This document shows positions 348 to 6,054 of a DNA stretch of 6,054 nucleotides, in pieces. Each line of letters starts with the position of its first letter. Positions within the stretch are counted from its first letter, which is position 1. Origin of the DNA: a bacterium. Lineage in GTDB: Bacteria > Lindowbacteria > 2-12-FULL-62-27. Where the stretch lies: assembly GCA_016202645.1 (NCBI GenBank), contig JACQOF010000011.1:1-6054 (forward strand), in the 5' to 3' direction. A program made the position numbers and the translations under genes. Below the pieces are notes generated by a model. It was not told where the DNA came from. It saw only the letters and a list, made by a program, of their open reading frames with translations, and did no database searches.

Positions 348-884
348 GTGACTCCGTGCCCGCCTGCCCTCCGCCCCGCGCGCGCGGCGCCAGCCACGCC
401 GTCAACCTTCCCCACCCCAGCACCCGCACGACAGCAGCCGAAGCTCCTCGACCGGCTGCGCGGGGCATTGCGCGCCCGCCATTACAGCCCCCGGACCGAG
501 CAGACCTACTGCCACTGGGTCAAGCGCTTCATCTTCTTCCACCACGTCCGGCACCCTGCCGAGATGGGCGAGCCCGAAGTCAACGCGTTCCTGCCCGAGG
601 CGGTGAAGCGGCCGCTCGCCGATCACCGAGAGGACGTGAAGCGCATTCATACGCGGGACGTGGCGGACGGCTACGGGCGAGTTGCACTCCCGGATGCCCT
701 AGCCCGGAAGTACCCGAAGGCGGCGTGGGAGTGGCGGTGGCAACACGTCTTCCCGCAGGAGCACCGCTGGGTGAACGCCCGCACCGGCGAGCAGGGGCGG
801 TACCACATGGACGAGTCACTGATCCAGCGGGCGGTGAAAGTCGCCGTGCACTCGGCCGGCATTGCCAAGCATGCGACCTGCCAC

Positions 885-955
885 CTGTCTGCCGTCACCC
901 CCGGCACAGGCAGGCACCCTGCGCCACTCCGGAGTTTACCCCGCGCTTGTGCGGG
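885..955 (+). other. Two short insertions flanking the LRHS motif of the integrase
   Basis: Compared with the intact family order H-TLRHS-FATH, extra bases lie at about 885-915 (about 31 nt, between the His codon 882-884 and ACC 916) and about 931-955 (about 25 nt, between TCC 928-930 and GCG 956). Each moves the frame by +1, which accounts for the frame 3 to frame 1 to frame 2 path. The second insert contains CCCCGC (939-944) and GCGGGG (951-956), a 6-bp stem with a 6-base loop. The same arms recur as a second hairpin 25 bases later (964-969 and 975-980). The boundaries are inferred from memory of the protein family, so they are approximate by a few bases. Confidence 0.6.
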
Positions 956-1195
956 GCGACGCACCCCGCCTTCCGCGGGGCGGGACACGCTATCCGGACC
1001 ATACAGGAGTTGCTCGGTCATAAAGACGTCAAGACCACGATGGTCTACACCCATGTTCTGAACCGGGGCGGACGGGGCGTCCGGAGTCCGGTCGATTCCC
1101 TGGGGGCTCCCCCGGCCGCGGGGGTGATAGACGGGAACCGGATAACACCCCAATGACATTGGAAAAAACGGCGTAACCGGTTGATATCACACACC

Positions 1196-1225
1196 TTGAC
1201 TGAGGTTTACCTGATGGGGTCTTAT
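1196..1225 (+). promoter_or_regulatory. Candidate cassette promoter (Pc-like)
   Basis: TTGACT (1196-1201) matches the sigma-70 -35 consensus at five of six bases. TCTTAT (1220-1225), 18 bases downstream, matches the -10 at four of six. It lies about 50 bases before the first cassette and points into it, where a cassette promoter is expected. The -10 overlaps the left arm of the hairpin at 1221-1247. This is a pattern match only. Confidence 0.35.
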
Positions 1226-1247
1226 CTGGCATCGTGCCAGAGATAAG
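1221..1247 (+). repeat. Inverted repeat in the attI region
   Basis: CTTATCTGGCA (1221-1231) pairs with TGCCAGAGATAAG (1235-1247) across a TCG loop, leaving a two-base bulge on the right arm. It is not followed by a T-run, so it does not look like an intrinsic terminator. It could be a regulator site, part of attI, or a worn remnant of an attC-like fold. The flanking core boxes expected for an attC are not evident. Confidence 0.5.
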
Positions 1248-1249
1248 CA

Positions 1250-1282
1250 CTTCACCTGGAAACCATATACGCGTAGTTAGCA
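1250..1282 (+). other. Putative attI / left end of cassette array
   Basis: GTTAGCA at 1276-1282 resembles the GTTRRRY core site where integrons are cut between G and TT. It is the complement, at six of seven bases, of the R'' box of cassette 1 (CGCTAAC, 2423-2429), which fixes the left end of that cassette at 1277. The sequence to its left would be attI. attI sites have little conserved sequence, so only the core point is supported; the 1250 boundary is nominal. Confidence 0.55.
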
Positions 1283-2513
1283 GCTTGACCAGAGTGATCA
1301 ACGCCGATGGACATTCACGCATTTATCGACACGGCTTCAATCGACGTACTGCAGGAGGAACTATGTCGATTGGCCACGGATTCTTCTTCGGATTCATTAA
1401 GCACCCTCGAAGAGTTTCTTCGCTACTGCGGACGTTCCGAGACAAAGGATGGGATCACGTCGATATCATTCAGCACTATGGTGCCACGTTTGCCTGCACT
1501 CGCACTGCTTCAGAAAGGACCAGTGGGAGTGCAGTCGCTTATGCGATCGCTCACAGATCAACACGGGGCGGGGTCGGAAGCATTCGCTGCTCTCTGGTGG
1601 GCCGCAAGAGGGAAGTTCACCCCCGACCTTTTTCAAGAACTCTTGAAATTCCAGTCTCGGGATGAACTTGTTCGAGCGCTAGCGGCCGAGACAATCCAAG
1701 CAGCTCGCGATGCGGTGAATCAATTGGTAATCGAGGCTAGAACGAATGCGCGATTGTTCGGCCACGTCTTGAGCTTCCTCGCCTCCAACTATCAAATGCA
1801 TACCTCTTTCGGGAGGGAAGGAGTCGATCTTGATGACTTCTATGAAATGATGACGAGCGGCGCGATAAAGCTTTCCCGCGTCCTTCTCCAGCAATTTGAA
1901 GACATGATTCAGCAAGAACTTCGAGAGGAGGAATACCAGCTCTTTCTGAAACAGCATCCCGTCTTCTTGGACGCACTCGCTGCCGACGTTATCCCGAAGC
2001 AGGCACTCGGGATCGAAATGGTGACCGACTTTGTCCTGCGGCGGTATGACAACAAGTATATCCTCGTAGAAGTCGAAAAGCCGCAAGACCGTTTGTTTAC
2101 CCGGAGCAACGACTTTACTTCCGACTTCACCCACGCTTTAGGGCAGGTCCTGGACTTCCAGCAATGGGTGGATTCAAACGGGGCGTACGCGAGGGTCCAC
2201 ATGCCCGATATCTCATCACCCCGCGGGCTCCTCGTAATGGGGCGGAGGATGGACTTGACGGATCAGAACAAGGGCAAGCTACACAGGTTTTCGGCGAATT
2301 GTTCTACCATCGACGTGGTAACGTTCGATGATCTTTTGCAGAACGCTACTAGCCTTTACCAAGCGATACTTCGCAAAGGCATGCCGACCAAGACGTGAAA
2401 AGAGGCCAGCGACAATCATCAACGCTAACTGACGCTGCAGCCGACCGCGGCCCGCCCGCCTGTCTGGCTAAGGTGTACCCTGCCTTAGGGGACCGCGGCG
2501 GCTGAGCTTTGCG
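1277..2513 (+). mobile_element. Gene cassette 1 (Shedu-like nuclease)
   Basis: The cassette runs from the T after G1276 to the G of the R' box at 2513, about 1.24 kb. It has 30 bases of leader, one ORF (1307-2398) and attC1 starting 24 bases after the stop. The compact layout with one ORF per attC is standard for cassettes. Its G+C is visibly lower than the integrase and the downstream operon (48-55% in two sampled 60-base lines, against about 67% in the flanks), which supports separate ancestry. Confidence 0.85.
1307..2398 (+). CDS. Shedu-like (SduA, DUF4263) defence nuclease
   Basis: 363 residues. The C-terminal half (about 205-355) reads as a DUF4263/Shedu domain, a PD-(D/E)xK nuclease fold used in antiphage and anti-plasmid defence. 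It has EEEYQLFLKQHPVFL, then TDFVLRR with Asp241, a strand YILVEVEKP with Glu255, Glu257 and Lys258, then HALGQVLDF with Gln280, and a closing GLLVMGRR plus DDLLQNATSLYQAIL. Asp241 with the Glu/Glu/Lys cluster is the likely metal site. The first ~200 residues are mainly helical by eye and I do not recognise them; in Shedu proteins this part varies and probably senses the trigger or regulates the nuclease. Single-gene Shedu systems are known, so no partner is required. No signal peptide or membrane segment is visible, so it should be cytoplasmic. ATG 1307 is the first in-frame start inside the cassette, but it has only a weak Shine-Dalgarno; expression may depend on an upstream promoter. No frameshift or stop is present, so it looks functional. 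Confidence 0.85.
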   Translation: MDIHAFIDTASIDVLQEELCRLATDSSSDSLSTLEEFLRYCGRSETKDGITSISFSTMVPRLPALALLQKGPVGVQSLMRSLTDQHGAGSEAFAALWWAARGKFTPDLFQELLKFQSRDELVRALAAETIQAARDAVNQLVIEARTNARLFGHVLSFLASNYQMHTSFGREGVDLDDFYEMMTSGAIKLSRVLLQQFEDMIQQELREEEYQLFLKQHPVFLDALAADVIPKQALGIEMVTDFVLRRYDNKYILVEVEKPQDRLFTRSNDFTSDFTHALGQVLDFQQWVDSNGAYARVHMPDISSPRGLLVMGRRMDLTDQNKGKLHRFSANCSTIDVVTFDDLLQNATSLYQAILRKGMPTKT

Positions 2514-2519
2514 TTATGC
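2423..2519 (+). other. attC1 recombination site of cassette 1
   Basis: 97 bases. R'' is CGCTAAC (2423-2429) and R' is GTTATGC (2513-2519); cleavage is expected between 2513 and 2514. The arms pair as GCT/AGC (2434-2436 with 2505-2507), CAGCCG/CGGCTG (2438-2443 with 2499-2504) and CCGCGG/CCGCGG (2445-2450 with 2493-2498). G2437 and A2444 are left unpaired on the 5' arm. Such one-sided extrahelical bases set bottom-strand recognition in attC sites. Unpaired spacers lie next to the cores (TGAC and TTTGC). The ~42-base tip contains a second small stem, CTAAGG (2468-2473) with CCTTAG (2483-2488). Confidence 0.93.
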
Positions 2520-2581
2520 GTGAGAAGGGCAGGCAGGAGACCGGAACCCGCGAGAGTCCGGAACAGAAGTCATCCGAATGA
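2516..2581 (+). CDS. Possible 21-residue leader ORF starting inside the core site
   Basis: An ATG at 2516-2518 lies within the recombination core GTTATGC and opens a 21-codon frame (MREKGRQETGTRESPEQKSSE) ending in TGA at 2579-2581, 28 bases before the main gene of cassette 2 and in a different frame. There is no clear Shine-Dalgarno in front of it. A short ORF in attI1 is known to help translation of downstream cassettes, so a similar role is conceivable, but chance is a fair alternative. Confidence 0.2.
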   Translation: MREKGRQETGTRESPEQKSSE

Positions 2582-2609
2582 GTGACTAGGGTGTGCTGGT
2601 GGAGCCCGC

Positions 2610-3557
2610 ATGACGACCACAGGAGCTATCGCCCCAAACCTTCACGAGGGAACGAGATCCGAGTACCTCGCCCAGTACGTCTTTTCGGCGTTTGGGACGT
2701 CGGTGGCCGTCCCCCACCCTGAAGACTCCGGGATCGATCTGCACTGCACGCTTGGATCCAGAGAGGGGCAGCGTCTTCTTGTTAGTCACTACTTCTCGGT
2801 CCAGGTGAAGAGTGGCGTTTCCCCAATCGCGTACCCCAATCCCTCGTCTGTGAGGTGGCTCCTCGGGCACAGGTACCCACTGCTGATCTGCTACGTGGAC
2901 AAAGGCACCCATCGGATCAGTGTGTATCAGACGCTGCCAGTCACGATGTGCTACGCAAAGGACGGAGTCTCGTCCGTCACCCTTGTTCCCGAACCAGACC
3001 CGGCGGGCTTTCATGTCATCAAGTCAGAGGCCAAACTCGAGCTCCGAATCGGACCCCCGATTCTTGAGTTCGCAATCACCAGACTTGAAGATGCAGCGTG
3101 GCTTCAGCAGGCCGTTGAGATCCTCAAGAAGTGGATCGAGATCGATCAGGCCAACATAGATCACAAAGCCTTTGGGGTCACTCTTTTCTCGGTACCGCAG
3201 TCCTACGCCCCAAACCAGATGCCTTCAGACGTATGGCAGTCCCTCGGTAATTTCAGGGAGTTCCAGGGAGATCCGAAGCGGCGTGCCTTGGCAATCGACG
3301 CCTTCTTCAAGATCCTTTCACACTTGGTCACTGTTGCTGCAGCCAATCAAGACCAAGGCCGCGTACAGACCATCGCGGAATTCAGCGTGAAGTGGTTCGT
3401 TGCTGAACGACCAGAGATCTCGAAAGCCCTGGAGTTCTTTGTCAACGTCCTGAATACTAGTATGCGGCACGTCGGACTGGAGGGTGGGATCAGGTTGACT
3501 GAACACCGCCCTGACGGCCCCGTTACGGGCTATCCTGTGATGAGCGTCGAGGACTGA
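2610..3557 (+). CDS. DUF4365-like PD-(D/E)xK nuclease-type protein, putative defence gene
   Basis: 315 residues. The N-terminal ~115 residues resemble DUF4365: a helix with Glu18 (RSEYLAQYVFSAFG), then a strand with DSGIDLHCTL where Asp43 is the likely acidic ligand, then YFSVQVKSG with Gln65 and Lys67 as the QxK form of the (D/E)xK motif, then YPLLICYVDKGTHRISVY, a strand pair typical of the family. Glu, Asp and the QxK are in the order expected for an active nuclease of this fold. The C-terminal ~200 residues have two mainly helical stretches (about 158-180 and 225-285) and I recognise no domain there. DUF4365 domains occur in many defence and restriction-like proteins, so a nucleic-acid-cutting role in immunity is inferred, not shown. 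GGTGGAG at 2598-2604, five bases before ATG 2610, is a good ribosome binding site and supports this start. No membrane segment or signal peptide is visible. The frame is intact. Confidence 0.75.
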   Translation: MTTTGAIAPNLHEGTRSEYLAQYVFSAFGTSVAVPHPEDSGIDLHCTLGSREGQRLLVSHYFSVQVKSGVSPIAYPNPSSVRWLLGHRYPLLICYVDKGTHRISVYQTLPVTMCYAKDGVSSVTLVPEPDPAGFHVIKSEAKLELRIGPPILEFAITRLEDAAWLQQAVEILKKWIEIDQANIDHKAFGVTLFSVPQSYAPNQMPSDVWQSLGNFREFQGDPKRRALAIDAFFKILSHLVTVAAANQDQGRVQTIAEFSVKWFVAERPEISKALEFFVNVLNTSMRHVGLEGGIRLTEHRPDGPVTGYPVMSVED

Positions 3558-3617
3558 CCGCGCAGTATCCATCCATCGTCGTTGCCAGCGGCTGGGCTAT
3601 CTGGGGACTAAGGAAGG

Positions 3618-3690
3618 GCATAACACGGCTTGCAGCCGACGGCGGCCGGTGGCATCCTGAGCCGCCGCGGCTGAAGCCTGGCCGTTGGGC
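3618..3690 (+). other. attC2 recombination site of cassette 2
   Basis: 73 bases. R'' is GCATAAC (3618-3624) and R' is GTTGGGC (3684-3690), a full match to GTTRRRY. The arms pair over 17 bp: GGCTT/AAGCC (3627-3631 with 3674-3678), CAGCCG/CGGCTG (3633-3638 with 3668-3673) and CGGCGG/CCGCCG (3640-3645 with 3662-3667). G3632 and A3639 stay unpaired on the 5' arm, the same bases and spacing as in attC1. The tip loop is short, about 16 bases. Confidence 0.95.
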
Positions 3691-3765
3691 GGACGTTACC
3701 CGCAGAAAGTCGCATTAGATCGGAATCAACTGTCACAGACGCGCTCCGCCTGTGTCTAAGGAAGT
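3691..3765 (+). promoter_or_regulatory. Leader of the sigma factor gene with a small hairpin
   Basis: Between the integron end and the sigma factor ATG, CACAG (3734-3738) pairs with CTGTG (3750-3754), with GCG/CGC stacked inside across a two-base bulge. It sits just before AAGGA (3758-3762), the likely ribosome binding site, only three bases from the ATG. I find no confident promoter. Since the integron edge is at 3690, the native promoter of this operon may have been displaced or may overlap the junction. Confidence 0.3.
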
Positions 3766-4656
3766 ATGGCAGCAGACCCCAATCCGTTTACGGACGTCGC
3801 CGCAGGTGAAGGGCGCGACCAGGAACTCGTTCAGCTTGCAAAGGGAGGGAGTCGGGATGCCCTCGAAGAGCTGGTCGTACGTCATCAGGCATGGATCTAC
3901 AACCTGGCGCTTCGAATGGCGCATCACCCGGAGGATGCTAAGGACGCCACACAGGAAGTCTTGATAAAGCTGTTCACGAGACTCTCGACGTTTGACGGAC
4001 GCAGCAGTTTGCGCACGTGGCTCTACCGAATCGTCATCAACCACCTGCTGAATATGAAACGCAGCCGCGCCGAGGCGAGGGAGATCACGTTCGCAGAGTA
4101 CGGACGAGCCCTCGATGACACGCCAGACGCGGAACTGCCGGATCCGATGGCGGCTCCCGCCGATGTGCAGCTCCTCGTTGCGGAAGCACGAATCGGGTGT
4201 ACGTCGGGCATGCTGCTGTGCCTGGATCGGGGGCAGCGACTGATCTTCATCCTCGGCAGCATTTTCGGCGTCAACGACACCGTCGGTGCGGAGCTGCTGG
4301 AGCTGACTCGGGACAACTTCCGGCAGAGACTCGCTCGCGCCCGCCGCGACCTGCAGAACTTCATGCAGGACAAGTGCGGGCTCGTAAACACCGCCAACCC
4401 CTGCCGTTGCGCCAAGAAGACACGGGGATTCATTGCGGCGGGGCATATCGACCCCAACAACCTGCGGTTCGCCCGGGAGCGCGTGACGCACGTGCGCGAT
4501 GTTGCAACACGCGTGAGCACGGAGATAACGGGGTTGGATGCGGCGTACGCCGAGGTCTTCCGCGATCACCCGTTCCAGAACTCGCCGGATTTCGTAGCTG
4601 CCCTGAGGGAGTTGATGAACCGGCCGGAGTTCCGATCGACGCTGGAATTGGACTGA
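3766..4656 (+). CDS. ECF-type RNA polymerase sigma factor with a cysteine-bearing C-terminal extension
   Basis: 296 residues, long for an ECF sigma factor (usually about 170-200). Region sigma-2 spans about 20-100: ALEELVVRHQAWIYNLALRM, then EDAKDATQEVLIKLF, the core-binding and -10 recognition helices, then GRSSLRTWLYRIVINHLLNMKRS. A linker of about 45 residues leads to sigma-4 at about 150-200 (DRGQRLIFILGSIFGV then ELTRDNFRQRLARARRDLQNFM), the helix-turn-helix for -35 recognition. Beyond it is a tail of about 95 residues with CGLVNTANPCRCAKKTRGF, holding Cys204, Cys213 and Cys215, which could bind a metal or act as a redox switch. No anti-sigma factor gene is adjacent, so the tail may take over control; that is inference. 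It is first in a group with the VOC gene 24 bases downstream. The frame is intact and the start is the first Met. Confidence 0.88.
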   Translation: MAADPNPFTDVAAGEGRDQELVQLAKGGSRDALEELVVRHQAWIYNLALRMAHHPEDAKDATQEVLIKLFTRLSTFDGRSSLRTWLYRIVINHLLNMKRSRAEAREITFAEYGRALDDTPDAELPDPMAAPADVQLLVAEARIGCTSGMLLCLDRGQRLIFILGSIFGVNDTVGAELLELTRDNFRQRLARARRDLQNFMQDKCGLVNTANPCRCAKKTRGFIAAGHIDPNNLRFARERVTHVRDVATRVSTEITGLDAAYAEVFRDHPFQNSPDFVAALRELMNRPEFRSTLELD

Positions 4657-4680
4657 TACCACGAGTAAAGGAGCGAAACC

Positions 4681-5112
4681 GTGAGCAAGCCAACACCAAA
4701 GGCTGTCGTGCCCATCATCGCCGTCGAGTCGGTCGACGAGATCCGGAGGTTCTACGTCGAGACCCTCGGTTTCGACCACGTGCGGGGAGTGGTCGGCAAG
4801 GACGGCCAGTTCGACTTCTGCACAGTCGCCAGGGACGGCGGGCGCATCATGTTCGCCCGCGCCCCGGGAGGGAGCCCCCACACCAAGCCTGCGTCCACGA
4901 AGCAGCCCGTCGGGATCTACCTTGAGGTCGCGGATGTCGAGCGCTACTTCGGGCAGCTTAGCGGAAAGAAAGGGGTGAAGGTGACGGACCAGCTGGCGAC
5001 GCAGTTGTGGGGCGACCGGACTTTCAAGGTGCTGGACCCGTACGGCTATGAACTCTGGTTCTACCAGACCGTCGGCGAGCCGAAGCCACCGCATGGCACG
5101 AAGATCGTCTGA
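4681..5112 (+). CDS. VOC (glyoxalase/bleomycin-resistance fold) family protein
   Basis: 143 residues, the usual length for a single-chain two-module VOC protein. Module 1 is VVPIIAVESVDEIRRFYVETLGF, the strand-helix that opens this fold. Module 2 is GIYLEVADVERYFGQL, closing with WGDRTFKVLDPYGYELWFYQ, the typical VOC ending. Glu82 and Glu124 are at common ligand positions, but the first strand lacks the His used by metal-dependent glyoxalases, so it may be a binding protein of the bleomycin-resistance type rather than an enzyme. The substrate cannot be told. The start is GTG 4681, supported by AAAGGAG at 4667-4673, seven bases upstream. It is 24 bases after the sigma factor stop, so co-transcription is likely. 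Cytoplasmic; no signal peptide. Confidence 0.85.
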   Translation: MSKPTPKAVVPIIAVESVDEIRRFYVETLGFDHVRGVVGKDGQFDFCTVARDGGRIMFARAPGGSPHTKPASTKQPVGIYLEVADVERYFGQLSGKKGVKVTDQLATQLWGDRTFKVLDPYGYELWFYQTVGEPKPPHGTKIV

Positions 5113-5163
5113 TTCAGTCACCGGCCTGTACAACGTATTGAGTATTTCTAAAGGAGAGGTGCC

Positions 5164-5784
5164 ATGCTTCCTTCAGAAAGACCCGCCCCGCGGCTCCAGC
5201 CGCTTCCTCCGGACCCGGGGTTCGCCGACGTCTTCGCGCGATTCGCCGCCGCCTGTGGCGGTTTCATCCCGAACGCGATGCTCATCATGCAGCGCAGACC
5301 GAAGATGCTGCGCGCGTTCATCCAGATGGGGGGAGCGGTCTCGGACCCGGAGACGAGCGAGGTCGATGCCGGCTTCAAACGGCTGATCGCCCTCGTCGCG
5401 AGCCACGCCGGTGGCTGCCGTTACTGCATGTCGCACAACGCCGCGCTCGTGCGCGGCTCCGTGATCGAAGATGCCAAGCTCGATGCGGTGTGGGAATACC
5501 GCACGAGTCCGCTCTACACCGAAGCCGAGCGCATCGCACTCGACGTGGCGCTCGCTGCGGGCGGAGTGCCGAACGCGGTCACCGATGAGATGTTCGCGAA
5601 GCTGCGCGAAAATTGGAGCGACGGCCAGATCGTCGAGATTGTCGCGATGATCGCGCTGTTCGGATTCCTCAACCGCTGGAATGACACTTTTGCGACGCCG
5701 ATCGAGGACGGAGCGCTCGCGGCGGGCGAGAAGTACCTCGCGCCCCACGGCTGGGAGCCTGCCGGGCATTTGAGGAGTGCATGA
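5164..5784 (+). CDS. Carboxymuconolactone decarboxylase (CMD/AhpD-like) family protein
   Basis: 206 residues, all-helical by eye. The hallmark is VASHAGGCRYCMSHNAALVRG, the CxxC...H active site of AhpD-like proteins with Cys85, Cys88 and His91, where the Cys pair works in thiol-disulfide exchange or peroxide reduction. Upstream are FIPNAMLIMQRRPKMLRAF and downstream LYTEAERIALDVALA and the helix IVAMIALFGFLNRWNDTF, both typical of the family. A true carboxymuconolactone decarboxylase would lack the Cys pair, so a redox role is more likely than aromatic degradation. ATG 5164 follows AAAGGAG at 5150-5156, a very strong ribosome binding site. It is 51 bases after the VOC gene and is the last gene of the group. 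CMD genes next to sigma factor genes are a known arrangement. Confidence 0.9.
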   Translation: MLPSERPAPRLQPLPPDPGFADVFARFAAACGGFIPNAMLIMQRRPKMLRAFIQMGGAVSDPETSEVDAGFKRLIALVASHAGGCRYCMSHNAALVRGSVIEDAKLDAVWEYRTSPLYTEAERIALDVALAAGGVPNAVTDEMFAKLRENWSDGQIVEIVAMIALFGFLNRWNDTFATPIEDGALAAGEKYLAPHGWEPAGHLRSA

Positions 5785-5826
5785 CAATCCGCAGGTTCAA
5801 CTTCGTCCTCGGGCTCGTAAGAGGGG

Positions 5827-5846
5827 ACGTTGGTGCAGAAACAACT
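5827..5846 (+). repeat. Direct repeat, copy 1
   Basis: ACGTTGGTGCAGAAACAACT, identical to the last 20 bases of the window, 208 bases downstream. The ends GTTG and CAAC are inverted with respect to each other within each copy. Confidence 0.9.
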
Positions 5847-6034
5847 TGCTGCATAGCCCATCACGGCGGCCTTCTCGGCGTCAAGAGGGAACGGGTGGCC
5901 CCTCAGCAATCAGGCGATAACCTCTCTGCCCCGTGCCCGGGGGCAAGGTCCCCGTTGCCGGGATGACCGTACCCATCCCAGGGATCCCGCAGGGACGGAG
6001 ACGCACCGGGCCGACATCCGGGTGACGGTGGAAC

Positions 6035-6054
6035 ACGTTGGTGCAGAAACAACT
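6035..6054 (+). repeat. Direct repeat, copy 2, truncated by the window edge
   Basis: Identical to 5827-5846 over 20 bases, up to the last base of the window, so the repeat may continue beyond. Bases to the left of each copy differ (GGGG against GAAC), so the left boundary is real. Confidence 0.9.

Follow-up and report, generated by a model that had tools for sequence, protein, structure and literature searches.

A two-cassette integron remnant with a Shedu-family gene and a DUF4365-like gene in an uncultured bacterial lineage

Defence cassettes have been described from chromosomal and mobile integrons (Darracq 2025, Kieffer 2025 and Getz 2025, cited in PMC12444791 and described in PMC12409362), and in the form in which they are summarised there they are single-gene anti-phage cassettes, each with its attC site, within an integron array. 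A Shedu-type gene is known from an integron cassette of Xanthomonas, where most of the host integrases are deleted or truncated (PMC12444791). Shedu systems consist of a single gene, whose product senses DNA ends or other cues with its N-terminal domain; the N-terminal clamp binds DNA ends and the PD-(D/E)XK domain nicks the DNA (PMC12904381). In a metagenome survey 23% of the COG-classified integron genes belonged to defence (PMC7370490), and restriction/methylation makes up 8.3% of the archaeal cassettes with predicted function (PMC9668308). Because defence genes are so common in integrons, two defence cassettes out of two are not remarkable alone. As integron defence genes, Shedu included, are already published, the locus described here is a sound new example, though an ordinary one. 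It is worth following for two features, a Shedu cassette which it has in common with another bacterial group, and an ExE active site.

The window, by which we mean the whole analysed stretch of 6,054 nucleotides, makes up the whole of contig C128 in a MAG with 146 contigs and 2.9 Mb, which is 82% complete. It begins on the left with the last part of a URO-D-like gene, followed by a defective integron integrase and by two cassettes, and ends with genes for an ECF sigma factor, a glyoxalase-family protein and a CMD/AhpD-like protein:

3-142, + strand: 3' end of a uroporphyrinogen decarboxylase-like gene, left flank, truncated at the contig start (Pfam URO-D 24.2 bits, cut-off 23.9)
444-1102, + strand: integron integrase pseudogene (TIGR02249 at 444-599, 591-884 and 935-1102)
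1157-1306, no strand assigned: presumed attI region and junction with cassette 1 (core-like GTTAGCA at 1276-1282; GC 0.49 versus 0.69 upstream)
1277-2513, + strand: cassette 1 (core sites at 1276 and inside the R' of attC1)
1307-2398, + strand: ORF1, Shedu-family protein (SduA_C/DUF4263) of 363 aa (Pfam PF14082 69.4 bits; PADLOC SduA 3e-35; PDB 8ti8 4e-17; VIA-align Z 9.0)
2423-2519, + strand: attC1 (covariance model 24.4 bits, E 4e-5; fold z -3.95)
2514-3684, + strand: cassette 2 (between the R' cleavage points of attC1 and attC2)
2610-3557, + strand: ORF2, DUF4365-like protein of 315 aa with the motif D43, Q65, K67 (Pfam PF14280 23.5 bits; PADLOC PDC-M02A 1e-4)
3618-3690, + strand: attC2, final site of the array (covariance model 25.5 bits, E 2e-5; fold z -3.37)
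3766-4656, + strand: ECF-type sigma factor, right flank (TIGR02937 70 bits, cut-off 42.9)
4681-5112, + strand: glyoxalase/VOC protein, flank (PF00903 47.5 bits)
5164-5784, + strand: CMD/AhpD-like protein, flank (PF02627 30.3 bits)

We read this locus, with a probability of about 0.62, as a short frozen integron remnant with two independently captured single-gene cassettes, one for a Shedu-type restriction protein and one for a separate nuclease. It resembles the published defence cassettes, as far as these are summarised in the cited accounts, in its single-gene cassettes with attC sites and extends them to an uncultured lineage; it differs from them in being a two-cassette remnant with a broken, inverted integrase and in that its activity is predicted. 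With the Xanthomonas Shedu cassettes, likened here by their description, it shares a cassette-borne Shedu and a damaged integrase, and the features of ORF1 to be set beside them are its ExE motif and its helical N-terminal domain.

The first-pass annotation had described two well-formed attC sites, each with one intact ORF in the same orientation, and an array from 1277 to 3690, all of which was confirmed, the attC sites by an independent search. A covariance model built from 10 class 1 integron attC sites of 7 plasmids (three of the ten loop-trimmed), with the standard R''/R' and L''/L' stems, matches the window at exactly two places, attC1 and attC2, both with exact ends. The two sites possess the R''/R' cores, the L''/L' stem and the extrahelical bases by which integron cassettes are recognised. 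Folded as single-stranded DNA, their bottom strands beat dinucleotide shuffles, and the 3' arm bears two bulged, unpaired bases with a spacing of six pairs, the hallmark of attC. A strict architecture scan finds both sites on the + strand and nothing in 60 dinucleotide shuffles (a looser scan gives 0.4 matches per shuffle); its one minus-strand call, 3536-3632 in reverse-strand coordinates, is attC1 read from the other strand. The outer limits of the array coincide with the GTTAGCA at 1276 and with the end of R' at 3690. Each cassette holds a single intact ORF on the + strand, in the orientation of its attC site, and at 366 and 323 codons the open frames are longer than those of all 500 base shuffles (medians 113 and 125). 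With GC contents of 0.53 and 0.57 the two ORFs are poorer in GC than the flanks (0.62-0.69), which fits acquired genes. Because each gene has its own attC site, each was captured alone; the sigma factor gene is not a cassette, since no attC site follows it.

What the first-pass annotation had passed over is the state and the orientation of the integrase. The profile positions 1-52 (444-599) and 165-262 (591-884) are fused in one frame and positions 262-315 (935-1102) lie in another, while positions 53-164, which going by IntI1 presumably contain the first catalytic arginine, are deleted. Together with the frame change, a GC-rich insertion resembling a hairpin, at approximately 890-985, disrupts the HxxR region. 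The intact integrase that defines a complete, active integron is therefore lacking in the window. The remnant shares the strand of the cassettes and faces them with its 3' end, an inverted layout as in the chromosomal integrons of Treponema, whose integrase and cassettes are likewise transcribed in one direction (PMC3607928), although in the window the integrase is a pseudogene. A search for an intact integron integrase in the same MAG and in two family members gave, besides two remnants, only hits below the cut-off, of which those inspected were Xer-like. With a dead integrase the array is frozen unless an integrase acts in trans, and none was found in the incomplete MAG. We propose that both cassettes were inserted by the once-active integrase between itself and the neighbouring sigma factor gene, and that the later loss of its core would have left them immobile. 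A strong hairpin at 297-335 (GGCCCTCGGGG...CCCCGAGGGCC followed by TTTCGCTTT), probably a terminator, stands between the gene of URO-D type and what is left of the integrase; a scan of the whole window against Rfam matched no family.

These results bear on the possibility that the two cassettes ride along as neutral passengers, still intact yet silent, and have been free of selection since the death of the integrase. The dead integrase speaks for it, as does the fact that no sigma-70-like promoter was recognised between 1050 and 3800, so that expression would need read-through or promoters of another type. On the other side, both frames have stayed open over more than 300 codons, and genes upstream on the same strand may provide read-through. 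We consider the passenger explanation possible but rather unlikely. For a two-cassette remnant with a dead integrase and no recognisable promoter the earlier term "immune island" is nevertheless overstated, and while the kind of genes had been named correctly, a claim that the array consists entirely of defence nucleases rests on n=2.

Assigning ORF2 is the more difficult of the two cases. Its match to the Pfam family DUF4365 (E 6e-5) stays at 23.5 bits, 0.8 below the gathering cut-off of 24.3, but the D...QxK signature of the DUF4365 active site is complete (D43, Q65-V-K67). Since the signature is present and the score falls just short, "DUF4365-like", the label chosen in the first-pass annotation, is apt, although full membership of the family is not reached by the profile search. 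PADLOC assigns the protein to the defence-candidate model PDC-M02A (1e-4). The QxK of ORF2 equals Q62/K64, the active pair of TmuRE, a DUF4365-APAZ nuclease of short Argonaute systems, which degrades DNA once its Argonaute partner has recognised a target (PMC10810196). Unlike TmuRE, ORF2 has no match to an APAZ domain and no Argonaute neighbour. At the thresholds used, no homologues of ORF2 were found in plasmids, phages, viral contigs and 386 genomes. A kinship to a DUF4365 protein of one genome (G035) was rejected, as the BLAST alignment covers only 33 residues (E 0.06). The single-sequence structure model (pLDDT 35) is uninformative about a PD-(D/E)xK fold.

Instead of being a defence nuclease, ORF2 might serve housekeeping or stabilisation and have an N-terminus that resembles a nuclease, and the sub-threshold Pfam score, the missing homologues in the collections searched and the poor BLAST value fit such a role. 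This explanation has to account for all residues of the D...QxK signature being present and for matches to nuclease or defence-candidate models in two independent libraries, and we regard it as unlikely, slightly more so than that of silent passengers. ORF2 is likely a DNA nuclease. Within the preferred reading of a frozen remnant it would be a second, separate metal-dependent nuclease, with a DUF4365-like domain at the N-terminus and a further, C-terminal part, and as an orphan DUF4365-like protein without Argonaute it is a candidate for cloning.

ORF1 is an SduA_C-domain protein, as the first-pass annotation had proposed. The Pfam match covers the residues 206-344 and passes the curated cut-off of 27 bits by far (E 5e-19). 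The PDB match comes from a profile of ORF1 and six Shedu relatives, which besides the SduA of Bacillus cereus (8ti8) also finds that of Escherichia coli (8ps4, 2e-8). In a model made with AlphaFold2 from a three-sequence input (mean pLDDT 57, the nuclease part of low confidence) the nuclease domain comprises about residues 186-355 and the N-terminal part, 1-189, consists of helical repeats. Residues 186-355 align to the B. cereus nuclease domain (8ti9_B, VIA-align) with a Z of 9.0 and an rmsd of 4.8 over 158 residues, where the helical-repeat background reaches Z 8, and Foldseek places Shedu in first rank; the model matches the E. coli Shedu by its fold as well. Because the nuclease part of the model is of low confidence, the fold match is supportive and not an independent proof. 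Matches of the N-terminal domain to other helical-repeat proteins (Z 6-8) were rejected as relatives, this arrangement being common. With the SduA proteins of B. cereus (8ti8/8ti9) and E. coli ORF1 shares the C-terminal DUF4263 nuclease domain and the active-site Asp and Glu, and it differs from them in that the match is limited to the C-terminal part, that the N-terminal domain appears different and that a Glu takes the place of the catalytic Lys. The domain order fits the Shedu plan. In the proposed mechanism the helical-repeat domain would sense or clamp foreign DNA (DNA ends in the case of E. coli SduA), and the C-terminal PD-(D/E)x(K/E) domain, probably oligomeric, would then cut it, which could protect the host against phages or plasmids.

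The earlier assignment of a PD-(D/E)xK-type motif to ORF1 holds for D241 and E255. The motif reads D241...E255-V-E257-K258, so that a Glu stands at the textbook position of the ExK lysine, a replacement which had gone unmentioned. Tested Shedu proteins carry D...ExK, while the Pfam definition does without the lysine. D241 and E255 are invariant among ORF1 and the relatives compared. Glu replaces the Lys also in the relatives from a Geobacteraceae MAG (L002) and from Microbacterium (L003) and in three plasmid proteins annotated with an SduA domain (L043, L044, L045), and Lys is found in a second Shedu of the same MAG (L015) and in the Shedu of Vibrio fluvialis. In VcSduA the exchange K557A abolishes protection, which demonstrates that this nuclease residue is needed (PMC12137116).

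Cleavage by ORF1 is thus not assured, and the protein might have kept the Shedu fold, lost cleavage and act through DNA binding alone, since E257 occupies the place of the lysine carried by Shedu proteins of proven activity. Against this, ExE does not drift but is kept in the five relatives just named, which come from different phyla, and the other two active-site residues do not vary. Moreover, some restriction enzymes with the PD-(D/E)xK fold, such as BamHI, use ExE. We therefore hold a purely DNA-binding ORF1 to be improbable and nuclease activity, as far as the motif allows a prediction, likely; cloning of ORF1 would offer a way to learn whether ExE Shedu proteins cut DNA.

A close relative of ORF1 is encoded on the Geobacteraceae contig (1996-3084) and shows 48% identity over the full length. 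Its gene is flanked by two attC-like sites (1758-1831 and 3131-3188) and belongs to a longer array (701-5290) with further such sites at 701-772, 1256-1313 and 5213-5290. The architecture scan recovers four of these sites, with none in 25 shuffles; the site at 3131-3188 fails the bulge filter of the scan, yet has a fold z of -2.9. As the class 1 covariance model barely detects them (best 9.8 bits), these sites rest on architecture and position. The cassette has SMI1/KNR4, DUF4826 and AAA_15 genes as neighbours in the array. The Shedu clade of ORF1 is therefore cassette-borne in two different bacterial groups, and the Geobacteraceae gene is evidence for the transfer of one Shedu clade or more, in cassette form, among bacteria that are distant from each other. 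No array was seen around the Microbacterium gene (37% identity to ORF1), and no homologues of ORF1 were found in viral contigs and phages.

The earlier suggestion of two complementary nucleases gains no support, and their selection as one cooperative pair, for instance of a sensor nuclease and a degrader, is very improbable: the genes are adjacent and co-oriented, but separate attC sites mean separate capture, neither the Geobacteraceae Shedu cassette nor the second one of this MAG has a DUF4365-like neighbour among the ORFs scanned, and VcSduA works alone (PMC12137116).

The same MAG harbours further cassettes. At the start of a contig of 181 kb (C106) we found a second integron remnant (556-2374), again in the inverted layout, in the order integrase C-terminus, cassette for an Mrr-type restriction endonuclease (PF04471, 50 bits), attC (1062-1129, 51 bits) and ORF for a ParE-like toxin. 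Contig C5 carries the second, different Shedu gene (1371-2103; PADLOC 7e-73), which has the ExK motif and ends in its own attC (2046-2103, 24.6 bits), with another attC-like site at 3096-3153. On contig C47 (3555-9906) attC-like sites follow a TIR gene pair, a dCMP deaminase gene (PADLOC dCTPase 2e-24) and a GmrSD_N/HEC-05-type gene; these sites are weaker, with z values of -1.8 after the TIR pair and -1.0 after the deaminase, barely better than shuffles. In a whole-genome covariance search no more than 150 of 3623 candidates received a score and the sites of the window itself were missed, which makes this search unfit for counting cassettes. A pattern search yielded 11 matches where its reversed control yielded 45, and of the 11 only those bearing a stem were believed.

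Tentatively, and as a possibility we would rather doubt than assert, a Shedu clade with a helical-repeat sensor and an ExE site may have spread between phyla as cassettes, and the inverted integrons of the host lineage may store mainly nuclease and signalling genes of defence (two different Shedu, DUF4365-like, Mrr, TIR pair, dCMP deaminase). The apparent richness of the MAG in defence genes is biased, since contig C5 was found through its Shedu gene. Short contigs of the MAG may be misbinned. A repeat of 29 bases, AAGAGGGGACGTWGGTNCWRAAACAACTT, occupies 5819-5847 of the window, and part of it recurs at 6035-6054, the contig end, where the assembly stopped. Allowing two mismatches, this repeat occurs within the MAG only in the window and on C5, which favours a single source of both contigs.
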